Assembly: GCA_001724855.1 (NCBI GenBank)
Contig: MEED01000032.1
Location: 1-64,000, forward strand
Length of the DNA: 64,000 nucleotides
Direction: 5' to 3'
DNA from: Lautropia sp. SCN 69-89
GTDB taxonomy: Bacteria > Pseudomonadota > Gammaproteobacteria > Burkholderiales > Burkholderiaceae_E
The position numbers were made by a program, and so were the translations under genes. Shown one piece after another: positions 18,361-64,000 of this stretch (position 1 is its first letter; every line of letters begins with the position of its first letter). Below the pieces are notes generated by a model, which was given only the letters and a program-made list of their open reading frames with translations, did not search any database and was not told the DNA's origin.

Positions 18361-18649
18361 AGCCGAACTTGTAGAGCACCCCGTAGCCGCCGCGCGGGTA
18401 CGACCATTCGACGTTGTCGAACTCGCTGCAAAGCAGCCGGCAGGTGCCGCATTCGAGGCAACCGTCGGTGGACAGGACCACGCTGCCGTCCTCGGTCTTC
18501 GTGTAGCAACCGGCCGGGCAGCACCAGGTGCACGACGGCGTCTCGCAGCGGTCGCGGCAGATCTCCGGCGTCCTGATCGCGATATGCGCTCGGCCTTCGT
18601 CGACCCGGTAGCGGTTCTCGAACAGCTTCTCTTCGACCTTGACCGTCAT
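18359..18649 (-). CDS. fixX: FixX ferredoxin-like protein
   Basis: 96-aa cysteine-rich ferredoxin-like subunit of the FixABCX electron-transfer complex. It has the FixX patterns CTWCCPAGCYTK and GCLECGTCRLLC and ends GGYGVLYKFG. Its start overlaps the fixC stop by four bases. In diazotrophs FixCX carries the high-potential branch of flavin-based bifurcation to quinone. Confidence 0.92.
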   Translation of the reverse strand: MTVKVEEKLFENRYRVDEGRAHIAIRTPEICRDRCETPSCTWCCPAGCYTKTEDGSVVLSTDGCLECGTCRLLCSEFDNVEWSYPRGGYGVLYKFG

Positions 18650-19922
18650 CGCAATGCCCTCATCAGCTTGATCGCGTCGCCGACCAGGCCGAAGCGCGAG
18701 CGCCTGGCCACGAAATCGCGCTTGATCTCTCTTTCCTTGGTGAGCTTGTCCACGCCGTCGACCTTCAGCATGGTGTGCGCCGCGCGCGTGAGCAGCTCCG
18801 GATAGGTGGTGAGGAACTGCCGGTTGCCGTGCAGGATCTCGGGCACGTCGCGGTATTTCTTCAGGTCCTTCATCACGAAGCTCTGCTCGAGCGCGCTGCG
18901 GTAGCCCTTCAGGTTCGCCGCGGTGTAGTCCTTGCCTTCGTCGCGCAGCCGGATGATCGTCTCGGCCGCCATCTTTCCGGTGGTCATCGCCAGGTTCGAG
19001 CCTTCGCGGTGCACCGAGTTGACGAAGCCGCCCGAGTCGCCGCAGATCACCCAGCCGTCGCCGTGCACCGTCGGGATCGCGTTGTAGCCGCCCTCGGGGA
19101 TCAGGTGCGCCGAGCGATCAGCGGCCTGATCGACGGGTGGCTCTTCAGCTCCTCGAGAAGCTGATAGGGGCTCACGCCGGTGGACTTGAAGTCCTCGACC
19201 ATGCAGCCGATGCCGAGCGAGACCGACTCCTTGTTCGTGTAGAGGAACCCGGTGCCGACCATGCCCCGGGTGATCTTGCCGAACATCTCGATCACCACGC
19301 CGTCGTTGCCCGAGATGTTGAAGCGCTCCTCGATCGTCTGCTTCGGCAGGAAGTGCATTTCCTTGACCGCCAGCGCGACGTCGTGCGCCTTCACCCGCGG
19401 CCTCAGCCCCGCCTTCGTCGCGACCAGCGAATTGACGCCGTCGGCCAGCACCACCACGTCGGCGAAGATGTCGCCGTTCACGCGGTCGGTGCGCACGCCG
19501 ACGACGCGCTCGCCGTTCTTCAGCAGGTCGACCACGGTGGTTTCGCAGATCAGCAGCGCGCCGGCGTCCTGTGCCTTGCCCGACAGCCACTTGTCCATGT
19601 TGGCGCGGATCACCGTGTAGCGGGTCGGCTGCTCGTCGGCGTCGACCGTGCCGCGGAAGTGCGACCCGACGTGCGAGCGCTCGTCCATCAGCCACATCCG
19701 CTGCTCGAGCACCGCGCGCTCGAACGGCGCCTGCCGGCGACAGTTCGGGATCACCGCCTCGAGTGCCTCGGCGTACATGATCGCGCCCTGCACGTTCTTC
19801 GAGCCCGGATACTCGCCGCGCTCGAGTTGCAGCACGTTCATTCCGGCTCTTGCCATCAGGTAGGCGGCGGCGTTGCCCGAGGGCCCCGCGCCCACCACGA
19901 TCGCGTCGAATTTCTCGGCCAT
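18646..19922 (-). pseudogene. fixC: fixC (ETF:quinone oxidoreductase), frameshifted
   Basis: FAD flavoprotein accepting electrons from FixAB and reducing quinone. The N-terminal part is read from the ATG at 19922 (RBS AAGGAG): [27 protein letters not shown] with the FAD motif, continuing to [11 protein letters not shown], then a stop at 19101 in that frame. The rest ([21 protein letters not shown] to the end) is in another frame. FixC proteins normally have about seven more residues between PLIA and SAH. The break is therefore best explained by loss of about 22 bases near 19110-19120. The rest of the gene looks intact and conserved, so a recent mutation or a sequence/assembly error is more likely than old decay. 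As written, the protein would be truncated to about 273 residues without its quinone-side domain. Confidence 0.85.
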
Positions 19923-19938
19923 CGGTCGCTCCTTCTCG

Positions 19939-21030
19939 TCAGGCGGCCACGCGGCGGCCGAGCCGTTCGCGCAACGCCTCGGTGAGCGCCGGCAGGATCT
20001 GCAGCGCGTCGCCGACCACCGCATAGGTGGCGAAGTCCATGATCGGCGCGTTCGGATCGCTGTTGATCGCGATGATCACGTCCGAGCCCTCGACGCCCAC
20101 CCGATGCTGGATCGCCCCGGAAATGCCCGCGGCGATGTACAGCTTCGGGCGGATCGTCTTGCCGGTCTGGCCGATCTGCCGATCGGCGCTCACCCAGCCT
20201 GCCTGCGCCACCGGCCGCGAGCCGCCGTAGTCGCCGCCGAGCAGCTCGGCCAGCTCGCGCACCAGCCGGAAGTTCTCGGGCTTGCCCAGGCCGCGACCGC
20301 CGGCAACGACCACGTCGGCATAGGCGAGCTGCGCCTTGTCGGCGTCGGCGTCGGGGATGTACGACAGGATCTTCGTGATCACGTCGTCCTCGGCGAGTGC
20401 GACGCGCTCCTCGAGCAGCCGGCCGGTGCGCTGCGCGTCGCGCCGCGGCATCGCCATCACGCGCGGGCGCACCGTGGCCATCTGCGGGCGATACTCGAGC
20501 GTGTGGATCGTGCACAGCAGCGTGCCGCCGAAGGTCGGCCGCGTGGCGGCGAGGCTGCGCGTCTCGTCGTCGATGCGCAACTCGGTGCAGTCGGCCGTGA
20601 GCCCCGTGCCCAGCGTGGTGGCGACGGCGCCCGCGAGGTCGCGGCCCAGCGTGGTCGCCCCCAGCAGCAGGATCTCGGGCTTGTTGCGCTCGACCAGTTC
20701 GGTGAGCGCCCGCGTGTACGGATCGGTGCGATAGTGCGCGAGCACCGCGTCGCGCACCACGTGCACCGCGTCGGCGCCGTGGCGGAACGCCTCGGCGCAG
20801 GCCTGCGCGGTCGCCGGGTCGTCCGGGCCCATGACCACGCCCGACAGCGGCACGCCCAGGTGGTCGGCCAGCTTGCGTCCCTCGCCGAGCAGCTCCCAGG
20901 AGACCGGATGCACGCGCCCGCGCTCGAGCTCGACGTAGACCCACACGCCGCGCCAGGCGCCGAGGTCGGCGCCGTCAGCGCGGCGCGGAGCGGCGGCCGA
21001 AGGCGCCGCGGCCTGATCGTCGCCGCTCAT
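19939..21030 (-). CDS. fixB: FixB, electron-transfer flavoprotein alpha subunit
   Basis: 363-aa ETF alpha subunit. Residues 25-200 form the N-terminal ETF domain; the C-terminal FAD-binding domain shows [49 protein letters not shown] and [15 protein letters not shown]. Its length exceeds housekeeping EtfA (about 310) and fits FixB. The ATG overlaps the fixA stop as ATGA, so the long track frame upstream is a shadow of fixA. With FixA it forms the bifurcating flavoprotein that oxidises NADH. Confidence 0.93.
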
Positions 21031-21869
21031 CGGCCGATCTCCTCTTCGAGTTGCGGATGCTTCGCGAACACTTTCGCCAGCAACGCGTCGACGGCCTCGC
21101 GCGCCGGCTTGCCGCGCGCGTCGACCACCTCGGCCTTGTTGGCGCGCGGCGGCGGAGCGAAGACCTTCTTGACGACAGTGGGCGAGCCCTTGAGCCCGCA
21201 ACGCGCGACCTCGGGGATGCCGGCGGCCTTGTGGTCCCACTCGATCGGCTGATAGCGCGCCGCGCGGAACATCGAATCCATGTCGGCGAAGCGGATCGTG
21301 TTGGCGCCTTCCATCATCGTGACCAGGCACGGCAGCTTCGTCTTCATCACCTGCACCCCGCCCTCGGCGCGACGGTGCACCACGATCTCGCGCGCCTCGG
21401 GGTCGAGATGCTCGATGCGCGACACGTAAGTGAGCTGCTGCAGCCCGAGCCGGCGCGCGATGCCCGGGCCGACCTGCGCGGTGTCGCCGTCGATCGTCTG
21501 CTTGCCGCAGAACACCATGTCGACCGGCCGGTCGGCGCCGATCGTGCGGATCGCCGACGACAACGCATACGAGGTCGCGAGCGTGTCCGAACCGGCGAAC
21601 ACGCGGTCGGTGATCAGGATCGCGTCGTCGGCACCGAACGAAACACATTTCTTCAGGGCCTCGACCGCCATCTTCGGACCCATGCTGAGCACGGTGACCC
21701 GCGCCCCGAAGCGATCCTTGATGCGCAGCGCCTCCTCGAGCGAAACGAGGTCGTACGGATTGACGACCGCCGGCACGCCCTGCCGCATGATCGTGTTGGT
21801 GACGGGATGGACCCGTATCTGGCTCGAATCGGGCACCTGCTTGATGCAGACGACGATATGCATGACCAT
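21027..21869 (-). CDS. fixA: FixA, electron-transfer flavoprotein beta subunit
   Basis: 280-aa ETF beta subunit, first gene of fixABCX. It begins [22 protein letters not shown], the typical FixA N-terminus, and contains [20 protein letters not shown] (nucleotide-binding) and [20 protein letters not shown]. It is about 30 residues longer than housekeeping EtfB and has FixA-like sequence, which supports the bifurcating Fix type. GGAG lies seven bases before the first ATG. A palindrome and an FNR box lie upstream (separate entries). Confidence 0.93.
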
Positions 21870-21880
21870 GCCGCGACTCC

Positions 21881-21902
21881 GGTATTTCGGTACCGTTTTA
21901 CC
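21881..21902 (-). promoter_or_regulatory. CGGTACCG operator-like palindrome before fixA
   Basis: GGTA-TTT-CGGTACCG-TTT-TACC is an imperfect 22-base palindrome with a perfect 8-base core, 12 bases before the fixA start. Reading with fixA, a good -10 box (GATAAT) ends seven bases before the core, so the site should overlap the transcription start. A related palindrome holds the same place before bzdN. Confidence 0.6.
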
Positions 21903-21966
21903 ATTATCGACTCGCGAGCCGCAAGGGGTGCGCGACCCCCATCCGGGCTACCCCACCCAGACCGGC

Positions 21967-21980
21967 TTGATCTGGATCAA
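21967..21980. promoter_or_regulatory. FNR/ANR box between fixA and ettA
   Basis: TTGATCTGGATCAA is a perfect match to the FNR-family consensus TTGAT-N4-ATCAA. It lies about 78 bases upstream of the inferred fixA start site and 67 before ettA. Because the site is symmetric it could act either way; the shared signals with bzdN favour fixA. Confidence 0.75.
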
Positions 21981-45564: not shown

Positions 45565-46032
45565 TCAGGCTGCGCGCGCCTTGCCCATGCGGGTCAGCGG
45601 GCGCGCGCGAAGGGTGCCGGCCTCGCTTCCGCTGCCCGGCGGGACGATGTCGGCGAGCGTGTGCGAGTCGAACGCCTTCAGGAAGCCCTGCAGCGCCTCC
45701 TGGACGATGCCGGTGAGCCTGCAGCTGCCGGTGAGCGAGCACTGGTTGCCGGTGCCGAAGCACTCGGTCAGCTGGAAGTCGGACTCCATGCTGCGCACCA
45801 CCGCGCCCAGGTTGATCTTGTCGGGCGGATGCGCGAGCCGCATGCCCCCGCCCTTGCCGCGCACCGTCTCGATCCAGCCGTTGAGCCCCAGCTGGTGCGT
45901 CACCTTCATCAGATGGGCCTCGGAAACGTCGTAGACGCGCGCGACCTCGGCGATGGTGCACAGGCGGTCGGGATGCTGCGCCACGTACATCAGCAGCCGC
46001 ATCGCGTAGTCGGTCATCATGGTCAGGCGCAT
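45565..46032 (-). CDS. nsrR: NsrR, nitric-oxide-sensing Rrf2 repressor
   Basis: 155-aa Rrf2 regulator. It has the N-terminal winged helix MRLTMMTDYAMRLLMYVAQHPDR with YDVSEAHLMKVTHQL, then the three [4Fe-4S] cysteines in ECFGTGNQCSLTGSC, which fits NsrR better than IscR or RirA. NO destroys the cluster and lifts repression. It lies in the oxidase operon, downstream of the cytochrome c gene and upstream of SCO1. An NsrR-like operator sits at the operon promoter, implying autoregulation. Confidence 0.85.
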   Translation of the reverse strand: MRLTMMTDYAMRLLMYVAQHPDRLCTIAEVARVYDVSEAHLMKVTHQLGLNGWIETVRGKGGGMRLAHPPDKINLGAVVRSMESDFQLTECFGTGNQCSLTGSCRLTGIVQEALQGFLKAFDSHTLADIVPPGSGSEAGTLRARPLTRMGKARAA

Positions 46033-56375: not shown

Positions 56376-56819
56376 TTACGCGGCCATCTCCTTCACTTCG
56401 GCCAGCAGCGCCCCCGCATCCGGCCCCATCGCATCATCGAGCATCGGATACATCATCTGCTCTTCCTTCAGGTTGTGGGGCACCAGCACCTCGAGCAGCG
56501 CCTGCGATGCGCGCTGCCAGCCGGCCGCGTCCTTCGCCGCGATCGCGTCCCGCATCTGCTGCAGGATGCCCTGCATCTGCTCGTGCTCGGCGCGCATCTG
56601 CACGCTCGGACCGGCCGCGGTCATGCCGGTGCGTTCCTCGAACGCGGGGAACAGCAGGTTCTCCTCCATCTCGATGTGGCGCTCGAGCCGCTGCAGGAAC
56701 AGCGCTCCGTCGCGCTCCATGCCGGCCAGGTCGCCGGCGGCGGCGGCCGCGGCAGCGCGCTCGGCGATGCCGTCGATGAGGTCGTGGTCCTGCTGCATGT
56801 AGTCGGTGATCGATTCCAT
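56376..56819 (-). CDS. Hemerythrin-domain protein
   Basis: 147-aa four-helix HHE protein. Metal-binding pattern: QDHDLIDGIAER, RLERHIEMEENLLFPAFEER, AEHEQMQGIL and VLVPHNLKEEQMMYPMLDD, giving the expected His/Glu ligands of a di-iron site. GAGGAG precedes the ATG. It is 35 bases after the ferredoxin gene on the same strand and is thus probably the last gene of the bzd operon. Hemerythrins bind O2 or NO, so it could guard the oxygen-labile benzoyl-CoA reductase; that is inference. Confidence 0.85.
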   Translation of the reverse strand: MESITDYMQQDHDLIDGIAERAAAAAAAGDLAGMERDGALFLQRLERHIEMEENLLFPAFEERTGMTAAGPSVQMRAEHEQMQGILQQMRDAIAAKDAAGWQRASQALLEVLVPHNLKEEQMMYPMLDDAMGPDAGALLAEVKEMAA

Positions 56820-56854: not shown

Positions 56855-57181
56855 TCAGGGCTGCCGGAGCTGGTCGAACTTGTCCTTCACCGTGGCCCAG
56901 TGGCCGGCATCGGGCAGCGCCTCGCGCTTCTTCGAGATGCCCGGCCAGTCGCGGGACAGCTCGGCGTTCAGCGGAATGAACTTCTTCATGGTCGACGGAA
57001 CGTCGGCGTCCGCGTAGATGGCCTCGACCGGGCACTCGGCCACGCAGGCGGCGCAGTCGATGCAGGCGTCGGGGTCGATCACGAGGAAGTTCGGCCCTTC
57101 GTGGAACGCGTCCACCGGGCACGCTTCGACGCAGTCGGTGTGCTTGCAGTTGATGCAGGCTTCGGTGACGACGTAGGTCAT
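56855..57181 (-). CDS. bzdM: BzdM-type ferredoxin
   Basis: 108-aa two-cluster ferredoxin: ACINCKHTDCVEACPVDAF and CIDCAACVAECPVEAI, then a C-terminal helical extension (LNAELSRDWPGISKKREALPDAGHW). GGAGG precedes the ATG. In the Azoarcus bzdNOPQM cluster the ferredoxin is the direct electron donor to the reductase, and the position after bzdQ matches. A 16-base palindrome lies between bzdQ and this gene. Confidence 0.87.
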   Translation of the reverse strand: MTYVVTEACINCKHTDCVEACPVDAFHEGPNFLVIDPDACIDCAACVAECPVEAIYADADVPSTMKKFIPLNAELSRDWPGISKKREALPDAGHWATVKDKFDQLRQP

Positions 57182-57249: not shown

Positions 57250-58230
57250 TCAGGCGGCCGCCTGCTCCGCCTTGCCGGCCGGACGCTTGACGACCACGAC
57301 CGGGCATCCGCCCGTGTCGCTGCAGGGCTCGAAGCGCTTGCGGGTGGCGGCCATCGCCGACCAGCGGCGCACCGCCTTGGCCTGCACCTGCCCCTGCTGC
57401 GCGGCGGTCGGCGGAATCGGCCTGCCCTCGGCCAGCAGCTTCTCGACGCGCCGCAGCCCGAGGTAGGCCGCGCCGTAGGCGCCGTTGAGCTGTCCCAGTC
57501 CGTTCGGCGCCACGTGGAAGCGCTCGCCGAGCGCGGCCTCGAGCGCCGAGACCATCGCCTCGTTGCGCGTCATGCCGCCGGTGAGCATGTAACCCGGCTC
57601 CAGGCCCACGCGGCGCATCAGCTGGATCGCGCGCCCGCCCAGCGAGATCATCGCTCCCATCATGATGTCTTCGGCGGCGATGCCGTTGGACAGGTGGTTG
57701 ATCACCTCGGACTCGGCGAACACCGCGCAGACACTGCTGATCGCCTTGGGCGACTTCGCGCGCATCGCGTAGGGGCCGATGTCCTCGGTGGTCAGGCCGA
57801 GATAGCGGGCGGTTTTCTCGAGGAACGCGCCGGTGCCGGCGGCGCACTTGTCGTTCAGGCGGAACGCCTTCACGCGGCCTTCGGCGTCGACCTTGATCGC
57901 CTTGATGTCCTGGCCGCCGATGTCGAGGATCGTGCGCGTGTCGGGAAACAGGTGCACCGCCGCCTGCGCGTGCGCGGTCAGCTCGGTGATCTGCGCGTGG
58001 CGAAACGGCACCGTGTAGCGGCCGTAGCCGGTGGCTCCGACGTAGACGACCTGCGAGCGCTCGAGCCCGCAGTTCTTCATCAGGTCGTCGAAGACCGCCT
58101 CGGAGGCCTGAGCCAGCTTGAAGCCGGTGCGGCGCACCGCGGTGCCCACCACCTTGCGCTCGCTGTCGAGCGCGATCGCCTTGGTGTAGGTCGATCCGAT
58201 GTCGAGTCCAGCAACGTAGAGCATTTTCAT
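57250..58230 (-). CDS. bzdQ: Benzoyl-CoA reductase ATPase subunit BzdQ
   Basis: 326-aa ASKHA-type activase subunit with phosphate loops GLDIGSTYTKAIAL and LDIGGQDIKAIKV, and adenosine region LTGGMTRNEAMV. The bridging [4Fe-4S] cysteines are in [13 protein letters not shown] and SSVCAVFAES. It pairs with BzdP, and the two hydrolyse ATP to drive electrons to the ring-reducing subunits. The C-terminus has a tail of about 45 residues with two extra cysteines (PCSDTGGCPVV) beyond the ATPase fold. Confidence 0.88.
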   Translation of the reverse strand: MKMLYVAGLDIGSTYTKAIALDSERKVVGTAVRRTGFKLAQASEAVFDDLMKNCGLERSQVVYVGATGYGRYTVPFRHAQITELTAHAQAAVHLFPDTRTILDIGGQDIKAIKVDAEGRVKAFRLNDKCAAGTGAFLEKTARYLGLTTEDIGPYAMRAKSPKAISSVCAVFAESEVINHLSNGIAAEDIMMGAMISLGGRAIQLMRRVGLEPGYMLTGGMTRNEAMVSALEAALGERFHVAPNGLGQLNGAYGAAYLGLRRVEKLLAEGRPIPPTAAQQGQVQAKAVRRWSAMAATRKRFEPCSDTGGCPVVVVKRPAGKAEQAAA

Positions 58231-58234
58231 CCTC

Positions 58235-59047
58235 CTACGCCAGCGCTTCGGCCGGCAGGGGCGTGGTTCCGAAGGCGTGCTCGCGTGCGACCAGCGCCGC
58301 GCCGAGCGCGCCGCAGAAGTGCGCGTCGGGACTCACGTTGATCTTCATGCCCACCGCCTCCTCGATCAGCTTCACCATCGCCACGTTGCGGCTCACGCCA
58401 CCGGTGAAGGTGACCTCCGAATGCACGCCGACGCGCCGCGCGAGCGACACGCAGCGGCTGGTGATCGCCTGGTGCACGCCCATCAGCACGTCCTCGGGAA
58501 GGATTCCCTTGGAGAGGTGGCTGATGATCTCGGACTCCGCGAACACCGTGCAGGTGGTGGTGATGCGCACCGGGTTCTGCGACTGCATCGCCAGCGGCCC
58601 GAGCTCGCCGAGCGACATCTCGAGCGCGTACGAGGCTGCGCCGAGGAAGCGCCCGGTGCCGGCGGCGCACTTGTCGTTCATCGTGAAGTCGGCCACCTGT
58701 CCGTCGGGCTTGACCGCGATCGCCTTGGTGTCCTGCCCACCGATGTCGATCACCGTGCGCGTGTTCGGAAACAGCGCCACCGCGCCGCGCGCGTGGCAGC
58801 TGATCTCGGTCACCTGCTCGTGGCCGAACGACACGTTGTAGCGTCCATAGCCGGTGCTGGCGACCCGCTCGACCTGTGCCTCCTCGATGCCGGCGTCGGC
58901 CAGTGCCGCCTTGAATGCGTCCTGCGCGATCGTGACCATGCTGGTTTCCATGTCGAGCAGCGCGCGCCCGACCACCTTGCCGTTCTCGTCGAGGATCACC
59001 GCCTTGGTCTGCGTGGATCCGACGTCGACTCCGCCGACATACCTCAT
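58235..59047 (-). CDS. bzdP: Benzoyl-CoA reductase ATPase subunit BzdP
   Basis: 270-aa ASKHA activase subunit: [29 protein letters not shown] and [12 protein letters not shown], with cluster cysteines in [14 protein letters not shown] and [10 protein letters not shown]. It overlaps the bzdO stop as ATGA and precedes bzdQ by four bases. The track shows it at the end of a longer wrong-frame ORF. The lengths of P and Q fit the Azoarcus type, not Thauera BcrA (about 440) and BcrD. Confidence 0.88.
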
Positions 59048-60408
59048 GATTGGCTCTCCTTCGTGGTGGACGCATGCTTGCCGCCCCCGGGCGCTGCGCC
59101 GCCGCGCTGCTGCAGCGACTCGAAGAATGCGTCGACGCGGTTCTTGATCTGCGCGTCCGACCAGTAGCGCGGGTCGATCAGGTCCGACTCGATGTACAGG
59201 CTCGGCATGTTCAGTCGCTTGTTCAGGTAGTTGCGCGTGTCGGCCATGCCCGAGGACACGAAGCGGCAGCTCTTGATGCCGTGGAACACGATGCCGTCGA
59301 CGTCGTAGTCGCGGATCTGCTGGGCCAGCCGTTCGTGCGCGAAGAACTGGTTCGACAGTCCGCGCTGAGCGGCCAGCGCGGTGATCTCGGCCAGGCTCTC
59401 GAGCGGACGCGAGGTGTCGTAGACCATCTCGCCTGCGTCCATGCCGCCGGCTGCGAACGTCAGGTAGTCGGAGTACGCGAACACGCCGCCCCAGCTCTCG
59501 AACAACTCGACCAGCCGGCGCATCGACACGTAGCAGGGCGTGCCCGAGAACAGCAGGCGGAAGCGTTCCTCGGCGACCCGGCCTTCGCCACGTGCCACCT
59601 TCGCGCGCAGCTGCTCCTCGAGGCGGCGCATGTACTCGACGCCCTCCTCGGTGCCGCGGTAGACGTTCATGATGCCGATGTAGGTGAGGCCGTCGAGCAT
59701 CGCGTTGTACGGCGCGGGGCACTGGCGGTTGAGCGCCATCACGTTGTTCCAGTGGAACACCATTCGGTTGACGCGATCCTGCACCTCGGCCAGCCGGTCG
59801 AAGTCGAAGCGCCGCCCGGTGATCTTCTCGCAGCGCTCGATCAGGTGGCGGAACTGCGCCTCGACCCACTGTGCGTCGGCCATGTGCTGCGCGTCGCCGC
59901 GGCGCACCTGCCAGTTGCCCGCGCGCTGGCCCGGCAGGTCGAGCACGAAGGTGGGGGTCTTGAGCATGCGCTCCCAGATCTCGCCCCACTTGATGAAGGT
60001 GCTGCACATGTTCGACGCGATCGCGATGTCGGCCTTCGGGATCGTGCCGGCGGGATGCTGCTGCTCGCGCAGGATCAGGCCGACGTCGGCCTTCACGTAC
60101 GAGCAGACGTCGGGCGAGTAGCCGTAGTCTTCCGACTCGCGCAGGTACTCCTCGGAGACCTTGCGCACGCCGGTCTGCAGCGAATTGATCTCCGGGAACA
60201 CCAGCTGGAAGTCGAAGGTGCGCAGGATCTCGACCGCGTTGCCCATCACGAAGACGTTGGCGACGTTCTGGCCGCGCTCGCGCGCCAGCGCGAGGTTCGC
60301 GTACCAGGCCTTCATCATCTGCTGGCCTTCGAGGTGCGGATTGAATTCGGCGCTGGCCGGCGCGGCCGCGGCGGCCGAGGCGGGTTTTTCTGCGGTGGCT
60401 GTGGTCAT
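59044..60408 (-). CDS. bzdO: Benzoyl-CoA reductase subunit BzdO
   Basis: 454-aa catalytic subunit of the 2-hydroxyacyl-CoA dehydratase/benzoyl-CoA reductase superfamily. An Ala-rich N-terminus leads to [18 protein letters not shown], and conserved cysteines appear in [43 protein letters not shown] and [18 protein letters not shown]. With BzdN it binds the double-cubane-type or [4Fe-4S] centre where the aromatic ring accepts electrons. It lies 13 bases after bzdN. Confidence 0.88.
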
Positions 60409-60421
60409 CTCGTGTCTCCGG

Positions 60422-61600
60422 TCAGGCGGTGGCGAACAGCAGCGACTCGGCGAAGGTTTCGAGCTGCATCGCCATCTGCTCGAAGGAAGTCATCTTTTCT
60501 TCGAACTCGAGCACCAGGTACTGCACGCCCACCTGGTCGAGGTGCTTCGACCAGGCGACCTGCTCGTCCAGTCCGGGCTCGCAGAACTTGGCGGCGGTGA
60601 CGATCGCCGCGTCGGCCCTGGAGGTGCCGAGCATCTCCATCAGGTAGCCCTCCTTGGTCTTGCGCTCGTCGTGCTGGACCGGGCTGGCGGCCGAACGCTC
60701 GACGAAGCTCTCGGCGAGCGCCCAGACCGGGTCGCCGGTCTCGGGCACGTCCCCGGTGATCCAGCGCAGGCCGATGAGCAGGTCGTCGTCGACCACGTAG
60801 CAGTTGTCGTCGATTGCCTCGAGCATCTCGAGCGGCGGCTGCTCGCAGAAGCCGCCGACGAAGACCACGCGCGGCTTGTCCTGCGCCGCGCGGTTGCGAG
60901 CGCGGATTCCGGCGATCGCCCTCTCGAGCAGCGCGTTGTGCTCCTCGCAGGGAATTCGCGTGCGCGCCCTGAGCAGCAGGTACGACTCGGTGCAGCTGAG
61001 CTTCCACGGCTCGTCGCGCCGGATCGCGTAGAGCTCGCGCAGCAGCTGCCGGTTGCGGTTGTAGGCGCGGATGCTGGCACGCAGGCTCTCGTCGTCGGTC
61101 GACCGCCCGGCCTTCTTCTCCATCTCGGCGCGCAGGCGCTGGTACTCGGCAGCGATGTAGCGCACCGCGCCCGGGGTGTTGACGTTCTGCGGCAGGTACA
61201 GGATCTGCGACAGCTGCTCGGGGAAGTTGCGCGCCCAGATTCCGCCCAGGTGCTTGGCCGCGTCGCAGATCGGGTGCGTGACGAAGCCCGACAGGTTGCC
61301 GAGCGCGCCGTTCAGGCCCATCTCGGTGGTGGAGCGGCAAATCGAACAGATGAACGAGCCCATGTGGGCATCGGCGTGCTTCAGTTCGAGCTTGTTGCCG
61401 CCGCCGAGGATGCCCACCGGCAGCAGGCCCGCCGCATGCGCGATCTCCTCGGGGAAATACACCGGGAAGTGCCCGATCGTGCCGGTGAAACCCTCAGGCA
61501 GCGAGTCGTTGCCGGGCACCGGCGCCTGGCGCAGGGTGTTGCAGTACTCGAGAATCTCGTCGAGTTCACTCTCGGGAACGTAGGGGGCTTCGGTCGCCAT
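60422..61600 (-). CDS. bzdN: Benzoyl-CoA reductase subunit BzdN
   Basis: 392-aa catalytic subunit, first gene of the operon. Conserved cysteines occur in SFICSICRSTTEMGLNG, FVTHPICDAAKHLGGIW and VFVGGFCEQPPLEML. Together with BzdO, P and Q it reduces benzoyl-CoA to a cyclic dienoyl-CoA at the cost of ATP, the central step of anaerobic aromatic breakdown. The gene order N-O-P-Q-ferredoxin matches the Azoarcus-type cluster. GAGGAG lies before the ATG. The later pathway enzymes are not in the window. Confidence 0.9.
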   Translation of the reverse strand: MATEAPYVPESELDEILEYCNTLRQAPVPGNDSLPEGFTGTIGHFPVYFPEEIAHAAGLLPVGILGGGNKLELKHADAHMGSFICSICRSTTEMGLNGALGNLSGFVTHPICDAAKHLGGIWARNFPEQLSQILYLPQNVNTPGAVRYIAAEYQRLRAEMEKKAGRSTDDESLRASIRAYNRNRQLLRELYAIRRDEPWKLSCTESYLLLRARTRIPCEEHNALLERAIAGIRARNRAAQDKPRVVFVGGFCEQPPLEMLEAIDDNCYVVDDDLLIGLRWITGDVPETGDPVWALAESFVERSAASPVQHDERKTKEGYLMEMLGTSRADAAIVTAAKFCEPGLDEQVAWSKHLDQVGVQYLVLEFEEKMTSFEQMAMQLETFAESLLFATA

Positions 61601-61625
61601 CGCTTTCTCCTCGCGTCAAATACGC

Positions 61626-61641
61626 ATTCCGGTACCGGAAT
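61626..61641 (-). promoter_or_regulatory. CGGTACCG operator-like palindrome before bzdN
   Basis: ATTCCGGTACCGGAAT is a perfect 16-base palindrome, 26 bases before the bzdN start. Reading with bzdN, a likely -10 box (AATTAT) ends two to three bases before it, so it should overlap the start site and suit a repressor. A related palindrome with the same core lies before fixA. Confidence 0.7.
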
Positions 61642-61672
61642 ACATAATTGAGCCGTGAGGCCCCCTGGATCC

Positions 61673-61686
61673 TTGATCTGGATCAA
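61673..61686 (-). promoter_or_regulatory. FNR/ANR box of the bzd promoter
   Basis: TTGATCTGGATCAA is a perfect FNR-type site. Its centre is about 42 bases before the start site predicted from the -10 box, the classic class II activator position. The Azoarcus bzd promoter is known to be activated by the FNR-type protein AcpR in the same way. Confidence 0.85.
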
Positions 61687-61709
61687 AGATCGATGTTTTG
61701 GCGATCTTT
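61685..61709. promoter_or_regulatory. Second inverted repeat upstream of the bzd FNR box
   Basis: AAAGATCG-ATGTTTTGG-CGATCTTT has perfect 8-base arms around a 9-base AT-rich spacer. It touches the FNR box and is centred about 60 bases before the inferred start. It may be a site for an additional activator or repressor of bzd. Confidence 0.5.
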
Positions 61710-61717
61710 CAGGAAAT

Positions 61718-61747
61718 ATTGCGGCGCACATATTGCAACGCCGCAAT
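61718..61747 (-). terminator. Hairpin after the HPF/cold-shock gene
   Basis: ATTGCGGCG-N12-CGCCGCAAT has perfect 9-base arms, 19 bases after the stop of the upstream gene on the same strand, followed by ATTTCC. It probably ends that transcript and insulates the bzd promoter. The ATATTGC direct repeat inside it could also be a protein site. Confidence 0.5.
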
Positions 61748-61765
61748 CAGACGGGCGCGCCGTCC

Positions 61766-62317
61766 TCAACCGGGGGAATGCCTGCCCACCGACACGCGCT
61801 TGGCCTGCGGCCCTTCTTCGGCGCCGTAGTCCTCGATGAACTGGACCTTCATGCCGGGTTCGAGCGCGTCGAAGTCGGGATCGACCACGTTGTCGGCCGA
61901 GAAATAGAGTTCACTGCCATCGGCCTTCTCGATGAAGCCGAAGCGCTCGTCGGCGACCAGGCGCACGACGGTGCCGCGCTGCGGGGTGTCGTGCACCTTC
62001 ACCTTGCCGCGCTGCTGGCGCACCACGTCCTCGAGCCACCGCTTGGCGACGTCGAAAGCTTCGCGGATCGCAATGTCGAAGTCTTCGTGGTGCTCGCGGG
62101 TGGTGGCGAACTCGTGGCCGGGCACGCGCAGGTCGAGCCGGACGTTGAAGCGCTGACCCTGCTGGTGGTGCAGCGCCTCCTTCTCGATCACGACCCGGCA
62201 GCTGATCAGCGCCGGATAGAACTCCTCGAGCTTGTCGACCTTGTCGCGCACGAGTGTCTCCACCGCATCCGAAGGCGGCATGTGGCGCACCGTGAGTTGC
62301 AGCGGTACCTGTGGCAT
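61766..62317 (-). CDS. Ribosome hibernation factor fused to cold-shock domain
   Basis: 183 aa: residues 1-105 form an S30AE/HPF ribosome-binding domain (LQLTVRHMPPSDAVETLVRDKVDKLEEFYP), and residues about 112-175 form a cold-shock domain (GTVVRLVADERFGFIEKADG, ELYFSADNVVDP) with RNA-binding aromatics. GGAG precedes the ATG. It probably silences ribosomes and binds RNA during low-energy or low-oxygen conditions. It is co-directional with the BCAM0308-type gene 22 bases upstream. Confidence 0.87.
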   Translation of the reverse strand: MPQVPLQLTVRHMPPSDAVETLVRDKVDKLEEFYPALISCRVVIEKEALHHQQGQRFNVRLDLRVPGHEFATTREHHEDFDIAIREAFDVAKRWLEDVVRQQRGKVKVHDTPQRGTVVRLVADERFGFIEKADGSELYFSADNVVDPDFDALEPGMKVQFIEDYGAEEGPQAKRVSVGRHSPG

Positions 62318-62339
62318 GGGCTTCTCCGTGGGCGCGGCC

Positions 62340-62843
62340 TCAGTGCTCGCGCGTCCAGCGCGCGCGCACGAGTTCCTGCTGCTTGTCGTAGTGCAGGTCG
62401 AGCGTGCCTTTCCAGGCCTCGTGCAGGCCATCGGCAATGCGGCGCGCGAGGCGGGTGGAAGTGGTGGTCGTGATCGATGTTCCGTCGGGCTGCTCTTCGA
62501 TGGCGATGATCCGTTCCATCGGATGCTCGGCCTTCGCGCGCGCCTCGCAGTTCTTCACGAAATTCAATACTTCATCGCGATGCTGCGCGAAGAAGCCGCC
62601 ACCGATGGTCACGTGGCCGGCCGGATAGCGGTCGTGCGTGCGCCGGCAGGCCGGGCAGCGGGTGCGGTGCGCCCCCTCGGGCGCGCTGGCCCAGACCCAG
62701 CGACCCTGCCGGTAGACCGCTCCGCAGTCCGGGCAGACGGTGGGCTCGGGAAGTTTCTCGCGGACCTTGTAGGCATCGTGGACCTGCTCGGTGGGCACCT
62801 CGTCGCGGTGCGCCGACCTGCCGGACCCTGTGTGCGTCTTCAT
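62340..62843 (-). CDS. BCAM0308-type zinc-ribbon protein
   Basis: 167-aa protein with two zinc-ribbon pairs (CPDCGAVY and CPACRRTH) near residues 37-70 and a conserved HVTIGGGFFAQHRDEVLNFVKNCEARA. I recognise it as the BCAM0308 family, named after a gene in the low-oxygen-activated locus of Burkholderia cenocepacia. Function unknown, perhaps RNA or ribosome related, given the HPF partner. An FNR-like site lies about 100 bases upstream. Confidence 0.78.
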   Translation of the reverse strand: MKTHTGSGRSAHRDEVPTEQVHDAYKVREKLPEPTVCPDCGAVYRQGRWVWASAPEGAHRTRCPACRRTHDRYPAGHVTIGGGFFAQHRDEVLNFVKNCEARAKAEHPMERIIAIEEQPDGTSITTTTSTRLARRIADGLHEAWKGTLDLHYDKQQELVRARWTREH

Positions 62844-62943
62844 CGGGGCGAACTCCTGCAAACGCGGCGAAACGCTCCACACAGAGGAGAGGCCCTGCGC
62901 ATTTCGCCGCAAGCCAGCATAGGCGCGCAGCCGGCGATCCGTC

Positions 62944-62957
62944 TTGCCCGCGATCAA
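62944..62957. promoter_or_regulatory. Imperfect FNR-like site before the HPF operon
   Basis: TTGCCCGCGATCAA keeps eight of ten consensus bases of TTGAT-N4-ATCAA (right half perfect). It lies about 107 bases before the BCAM0308-type start, in the 142-base gap that otherwise holds no gene. Plausible for an oxygen-regulated operon, but weak. Confidence 0.35.
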
Positions 62958-62985
62958 CGCCTCTTGCGCTCGGTCCGCCAGGCTT

Positions 62986-63525
62986 TCAGGGGCACAGCGA
63001 GTAGCGGTGCGCGCCGGGGCGCAATGACGCGAGGCGCCGTGCCGCATCGAGCATCACCCTGGCGGCGAAGGTCGCCACGTCGAAGCGCGCCTCGAACAGC
63101 AGGTTCTGGTGGGCGCCGCCGCGCGCGGTGCCGAGCCGTTCGAGGACGACGCCGCGCGCCGCGTGTTCCAGCGACTCGACGCTTTCGACCGGAAACGGGT
63201 CGCGCGCGAATGCCTCGCGCACCGGATCGATCGCCGCCCCCTTCGCCAGTTCGACGTACACGTAGCGCCTGAGCGCGCCCGAGGCGTCGCGGGCCTCGGT
63301 GGCCAGCGCGTCGGCCACGCCGGGCACGAGGCGCGCGGCCTCGGTGTGGTGCAGGCTGGCGCCCGGCCGGTCGCGGACCTCGGTCCGACCCTCTGGAATC
63401 AGCATCTCGAAGGCCTGGCGCAGCACTGCGCCGACCAGCTCGAGGTCATGAGCATGCAGGGCCGCGTCGGCGCAGGCGCGCCCGAGGCGGCCGAAGCCGA
63501 CGATCGCGAGCCGCAGGCGCTTCAC
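62986..63525 (-). pseudogene. Internally deleted diaminopimelate/amino-acid dehydrogenase-like remnant
   Basis: 179-aa ORF that joins a Rossmann N-terminus (RLAIVGFGRLGRACADAALHAHDLELVGAV) directly to what looks like a C-terminal domain (MLIPEGRTEVRDRPGASLHHTEAARLV, RYVYVELAKGAAIDPVREAF, LRPGAHRYSLCP). Full-length Ddh-like enzymes are about 320-350 aa, so the central catalytic part of roughly 150 residues appears missing while the reading frame is kept. It may be a non-functional remnant or a small new protein. Assignment is from pattern only. Confidence 0.5.
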
Positions 63526-63572
63526 GCGATCGCCGCTGTCGACGATGAGCCGGTTCGCCGCAACCCGGACTC

Positions 63573-63863
63573 CTACATCCTGCCGACGATGTCGGCCATC
63601 TCCTCGCGCGAGAATGCGCGCAGCGTCTGGGTGCGCACGTTGCCGGCCGAACCGATGGCCATCGCGAACGCGGTGGCCGCTGCCTCGTCCTGCGCGTCGA
63701 TGATCGTGACCAGGTCATAGGCGCCGAGCGTCCAGTAGATCTGCGACATCTCGCAGCCGTACTTGCGTGCCGCCTCGCGCACCGCGTCGGCGCGCTTCAC
63801 GGTCTCCTTGACGTTGCGGATGCCCTGGTCGGTGAAGCTTGCGAGCGCAATGTACTTCGCCAT
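63573..63863 (-). CDS. GYD-domain protein
   Basis: 96-aa soluble protein of the GYD family: MAKYIALASFTDQGIRNVKETVKRADAVREAARKYG followed by YWTLGAYDLVTIIDAQDEAAATAFAMAIGSAGNVRTQTLRAF, where GAYD is the family motif. It has a ferredoxin-like barrel fold and probably forms oligomers. Function unknown. The 137 bases upstream to the window edge hold only a GC-rich leader. Confidence 0.85.
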   Translation of the reverse strand: MAKYIALASFTDQGIRNVKETVKRADAVREAARKYGCEMSQIYWTLGAYDLVTIIDAQDEAAATAFAMAIGSAGNVRTQTLRAFSREEMADIVGRM

Positions 63864-64000
63864 GATCGAACTCCTTGCGAAGTGGGGCCGCATGGGGTTT
63901 CCGGGCGCCGGCGCCGGCCCCGTGACGCCGGCCGGAACGGACTCCGGTGACAGGGCGGGAAACTGCCTACTTTCCGCCGGCATCCAGCCGCCGTCAATCG

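Follow-up and report, generated by a model that had tools for sequence, protein, structure and literature searches.

The promoter of a benzoyl-CoA-type reductase operon in Lautropia sp. SCN 69-89 is, with high confidence, best explained by FNR activation from a site at about -41.5 combined with repression by a BadM-type (Rrf2) protein acting over the predicted start site. An earlier note on the 64-kb stretch of DNA analysed here (the window) had named four elements in this promoter region, a start-site palindrome, an FNR box, a second inverted repeat and a hairpin, and all four were recovered by reading and repeat search (Table 1). It had also supposed that the local regulator may differ from BzdR, which agrees with our results: the sites shared with other operons, the co-occurrence with badM and the matches upstream of badL point very probably to a BadM-type Rrf2 protein.

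The operon and its promoter

Judged by protein similarity, the operon downstream of the promoter is not a bzd operon, and the labels bzd promoter and bzdN given to it in the earlier note had to be abandoned. Profiles for bzdN, bzdO and bzdQ gave only 103, 109 and 172 bits against its subunits (cut-offs 454, 449 and 380), the operon scoring far below the curated cut-offs for both bzd and bcr, and all four subunits are closest to those of the 3-methylbenzoyl-CoA reductase MbdNOQP. A 282-aa frame at 58227-59075 was discarded as a wrong-frame artefact of the MbdQ-like subunit. Upstream on the same strand (61766-63983) lie genes for an S30AE and cold-shock protein, a BCAM0308-family protein and a GYD-domain protein, a set that resembles a low-oxygen-activated locus; the S30AE, BCAM0308 and GYD neighbours are kept adjacent to the Mbd-like operon in the closest relatives only.

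Table 1. Promoter elements and genes of the Mbd-like and etfB loci, with positions in the window.
Feature	Position	Strand	Remarks
Start-site palindrome, proposed BadM operator	extended 61624..61643; core ATTCCGGTACCGGAAT 61626-61641	.	one of three sites in 3.8 Mb at ≤3 mismatches; conserved in ~30 relatives
FNR box TTGATCTGGATCAA	61673..61686	.	perfect TTGAT-N4-ATCAA; placed at -41.5
Candidate -10 element CAATTA	61645..61650	-	-12 to -7 by FNR-box spacing; relatives have a comparable A+T element
Second inverted repeat AAAGATCG-N9-CGATCTTT	61685..61709 (-71 to -47)	.	role uncertain; partly conserved
Hairpin ATTGCGGCG...CGCCGCAAT	61718..61747	-	~19 nt beyond stop of preceding gene; probable 3' end feature
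Preceding gene, ribosome-hibernation (S30AE) and cold-shock domains	61766..62318	-	
MbdN-like benzoyl-CoA-type reductase subunit, first gene	60422..61600	-	nearest solved relative MbdN (364 bits); scores under the bzd and bcr cut-offs
MbdO-like reductase subunit	59044..60408	-	nearest solved relative MbdO
MbdQ-like ATPase subunit	58235..59062, start approximate	-	nearest solved relative MbdQ
MbdP-like ATPase subunit	57250..58230	-	nearest solved relative MbdP
Ferredoxin-like gene	56855..57181	-	two CxxC-type cysteine clusters; adjoins operon in many relatives
Hemerythrin-domain gene	56376..56819	-	PF01814; retained in relatives
Fourth palindrome copy, upstream of etfB	21882..21901	.	2 mismatches to GTATTnCGGTACCGnAATAC; next best in window 6; kept before etfB in relatives
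Second perfect FNR box of window, upstream of etfB	21967..21980	.	
etfB, electron transfer flavoprotein beta	21027..21869	-	
etfA	19939..21020, start approximate	-	
FixC-like FAD-dependent oxidoreductase	18646..19695	-	partial match

The promoter has the features of an FNR class II promoter, namely a TTGAT-N4-ATCAA box and, at the matching distance, the -10 element CAATTA. Setting the FNR box at -41.5 would place +1 at 61638, CAATTA at -12 to -7 and the extended palindrome at about -5 to +15; the palindrome lies 46 bp downstream of the box. Only two perfect FNR boxes occur in the window (at 61673 and 21967), and none arose when the 165-bp intergenic region was dinucleotide-shuffled 3000 times, as against 13 shuffles with a 16-nt perfect palindrome and 11 with 8-bp inverted repeats at the observed number. 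The window holds nine 16-nt perfect palindromes, so that such a palindrome is not rare by itself, and the start-site palindrome draws its significance from conservation rather than from mere presence in 64 kb.

Conservation and proposed exchange of the operator

For promoter comparison we retrieved 53 relatives of the first reductase gene, about 30 of which, mostly Burkholderiales, keep the palindrome as GTATTnCGGTACCGnAATAC. In these promoters an FNR-type box usually precedes it by 45-49 bp and the gene farther upstream is usually a different one, and several have a poor FNR match (L075, L079-L081, L106). This conservation across orthologous promoters rules out a chance palindrome and establishes the element singled out earlier as a real, conserved regulatory site. 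The description of the whole region as stacked palindromes holds in part: conservation is strong for the palindrome and the FNR box, but partial and limited to close relatives for the second repeat, and the hairpin probably belongs to the preceding gene.

In the first-subunit phylogeny, all promoters of the palindrome type but one outlier fall into a single supported group, 33 of whose 36 members carry the palindrome; TGCA-type promoters, which we would assign to BzdR/BoxR, branch around this group. Such a distribution suggests an exchange of operators before the Mbd-like operon. Among Rhodocyclaceae-type orthologues several TGCA motifs replace the palindrome, the FNR-type box is mostly kept, and badM is absent from the genomes. 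Orthologues of the operon also occur in metagenome-assembled genomes (MAGs) labelled Myxococcota and Ktedonobacteria (L091, L108, L109, L111); the Myxococcota-labelled one nests within Burkholderiales, through either transfer or contamination.

The second inverted repeat, which shares 2 bp with the FNR box, was rejected as a conserved operator. Its arms pair completely (8 of 8) in the window and the nearest relative, but only at 7, 6, 6 and 5 positions in the next four promoters, where no compensating changes occur; the repeat may be a contact for the RNA polymerase alpha subunit, or nothing. The fold of the hairpin is not unusual (z -1.4), a stem of different sequence is kept at its place in L064 and L112 (by eye), and it is probably the 3' end of the preceding gene.

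A shared site at benzoyl-CoA-linked operons

A search of the 3.8-Mb genome with GTATTCCGGTACCGGAATAC (≤3 mismatches, reversed sequence as control) returned three matches, all beside benzoyl-CoA-linked genes, vs. none for the control. The three are the promoter of the Mbd-like operon, a divergent korA / had-dch-bcr promoter on contig C10 that carries a perfect FNR box, and a site with an FNR-like box upstream of a GNAT-Rrf2 (badL-badM) pair, also on C10. A fourth copy, upstream of etfB, was located with the help of relatives, in which this gene is preceded by the same site. Relatives likewise have sites at badL, kor/had and etfB. When the palindrome was scanned for across the class, the matches in 369 genomes were mostly weak and scattered, and this approach was set aside for the gene-anchored search.

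The cluster on C10 is a canonical benzoyl-CoA cluster in which had, dch, bcrC, bcrA and bcrD are identified by score, oah and bcrB are assumed from position only, and a 2-oxoacid:acceptor oxidoreductase is divergent. The spacing of FNR box and operator differs between promoters (27 bp at badL, with the box on the gene side, and 82 bp at etfB). At badL (L002:1498-1558), the operator comes first and the FNR-like box next, ahead of the start codon, and several genomes share the 27-bp distance separating the two. The etfB-etfA-fixC-like operon (18646-21980), with a BadM-type palindrome and FNR box of its own, might feed electrons to the reductases.

Association with BadM

The badM gene is the Rrf2 gene at C10:38179-38733, preceded by the GNAT gene; by sequence match, the reductase promoter and badLM share a common operator. 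In a set of 49 related genomes, badM and the palindrome occur together in 27 and are both missing from 15; four have the palindrome only and three badM only. Palindromes were counted at ≤5 mismatches, a line chosen after seeing the data, and many of the genomes are incomplete MAGs. The association (Fisher p = 1.4e-6, or 2.8e-4 at 3 mismatches) ignores shared ancestry and is inflated by relatedness. Palindromes without a detected badM are those of L075, L083, L098 and L093, in the last of which badL runs off the contig end; badM without the palindrome is found in L094, and in L088 and L099, where a diverged palindrome stands at the right place.

We then took a weight matrix built from reductase promoters only and ran it on five distant badLM regions. 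Its best match fell upstream of badL in three of them; in the fourth the second-best match did so, the best one preceding an oxidoreductase-like gene, and in the fifth the match lay between korA and had. Within the genome's own sequence, it exceeded 10 bits at the four target sites only, across 122 kb chosen for holding them. The recognition region of BadM is strongly conserved. The aligned part is free of cysteines in the BadM proteins of the Burkholderiales set, which makes it unlikely that they sense through an iron-sulphur cluster as IscR or NsrR do. By eye, the palindrome of a distant genome (G540, L231:646-691) lies between badL and a divergent boxC-like gene, a neighbour that suggests that BadM there controls the aerobic box pathway. 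The window contains another Rrf2 gene (45565-46032), which scores between RirA and NsrR and below both cut-offs.

The mechanism that we propose, for a promoter responding to both oxygen and aromatic compounds, would run as follows. When oxygen is absent, an FNR/AcpR-type activator at about -41.5 would recruit RNA polymerase. The BadM-type Rrf2 repressor encoded on C10 with the GNAT gene badL would bind the palindrome GTATTCCGGTACCGGAATGC over the start (predicted operator element CGGTACCG), blocking initiation until an inducer appears. That inducer may be an acetamidobenzoate made by BadL, as extrapolated from Rhodopseudomonas palustris. Probable further targets of this repressor are the genes of the bcr benzoyl-CoA pathway, badLM (its own genes) and the etfBA operon.

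Alternative regulators and an RNA element

A BzdR/BoxR-type repressor, which joins an HTH to a shikimate-kinase domain, acts at the PN promoter of Azoarcus. Similar control here would fit the TGCA repeats of the Rhodocyclaceae-type orthologous promoters, and the genome search for bzdR proposed earlier did uncover a BzdR/BoxR-family gene on contig C31 (359 bits vs. a cut-off of 204, beside an acyl-CoA-ligase-like gene). Its operator, however, is absent from this promoter: as the earlier note had observed, no TGCA-type pattern covers the start, the sole TGCA of the region lying at 61734, inside the hairpin. BzdR-family genes are moreover found in 41 of 49 relatives irrespective of promoter type, so that their presence does not explain the palindrome, and we regard this regulator as very unlikely here. 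Somewhat less improbable, yet still unlikely, is that the palindrome serves another repressor of aromatic metabolism and that badM merely travels with the pathway. The site of MbdR (TetR) in Azoarcus likewise overlaps the start (PMC4424350), and binding of BadM to the palindrome is itself a prediction; against this, the site also precedes badL in distant genomes, including those that were found without the help of an Mbd-like operon, and the MbdR pattern ATAC-N10-GTAT has no match in 61601-61765.

Alternatively, the palindrome might work in the 5' leader of the transcript, as a hairpin, and not be bound by a protein; the 46-nt stretch would form as RNA a 10-bp stem of -15.3 kcal/mol (z -2.4). 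What is conserved, however, is the sequence itself with a nearly invariant GTAC center, the palindrome recurs at kor/had, badL and etfB at varying distances from the start codon, and with +1 at 61638 its 5' arm would be only partly transcribed. We thus rejected a leader hairpin as the main function and give it almost no credence.

Relation to known systems and significance

BadM-type repression together with FNR activation, the reading that we favor, has its closest parallel in R. palustris, where badDEFGAB is under BadM, an Rrf2-type repressor, and AadR, a Crp-type activator, and where BadL makes the acetamidobenzoates that release BadM (PMC6191541). Both systems combine an Rrf2 repressor paired with a GNAT gene, a Crp/FNR-type activator and a benzoyl-CoA reductase operon, a likeness of genes and promoter layout. 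Lautropia differs in its Burkholderiales host, its Mbd-like reductase, the distance of badLM from the operon and its at least four predicted target operons. In Azoarcus sp. CIB, the bzd promoter PN similarly pairs an FNR/AcpR box (-41.5) with a region over the start site where a repressor acts, but that repressor is BzdR, with TGCA repeats, its characteristic sites, at three operator regions (PMC6678401), whereas the Lautropia promoter has one palindrome and no TGCA repeats. As in the mbd promoters of that strain, a repressor site, in Lautropia a proposed one, covers the start of a related reductase operon (PMC4424350), but the MbdR operator is missing in Lautropia and the substrate of the enzyme encoded in the window is putative.

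On balance, we think it likely that Burkholderiales possess a BadM/FNR regulon over the bcr and Mbd-like reductases, etfBA, kor and badLM, and that orthologues of the Mbd-like operon have swapped a TGCA (BzdR/BoxR-like) site and a BadM site for one another, the FNR box staying constant. A recent survey placed BadM control of anaerobic aromatic breakdown in Alphaproteobacteria only (PMC10803450), and our results suggest that it extends past that class. A formerly unassigned palindrome thereby gains a named candidate regulator and a defined operator sequence, four operons join in a predicted regulon, and an uncharacterised Mbd-like reductase is tied to the benzoyl-CoA pathway through shared predicted regulation. 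The promoters compared here would further offer a natural case of operator replacement before one and the same operon.
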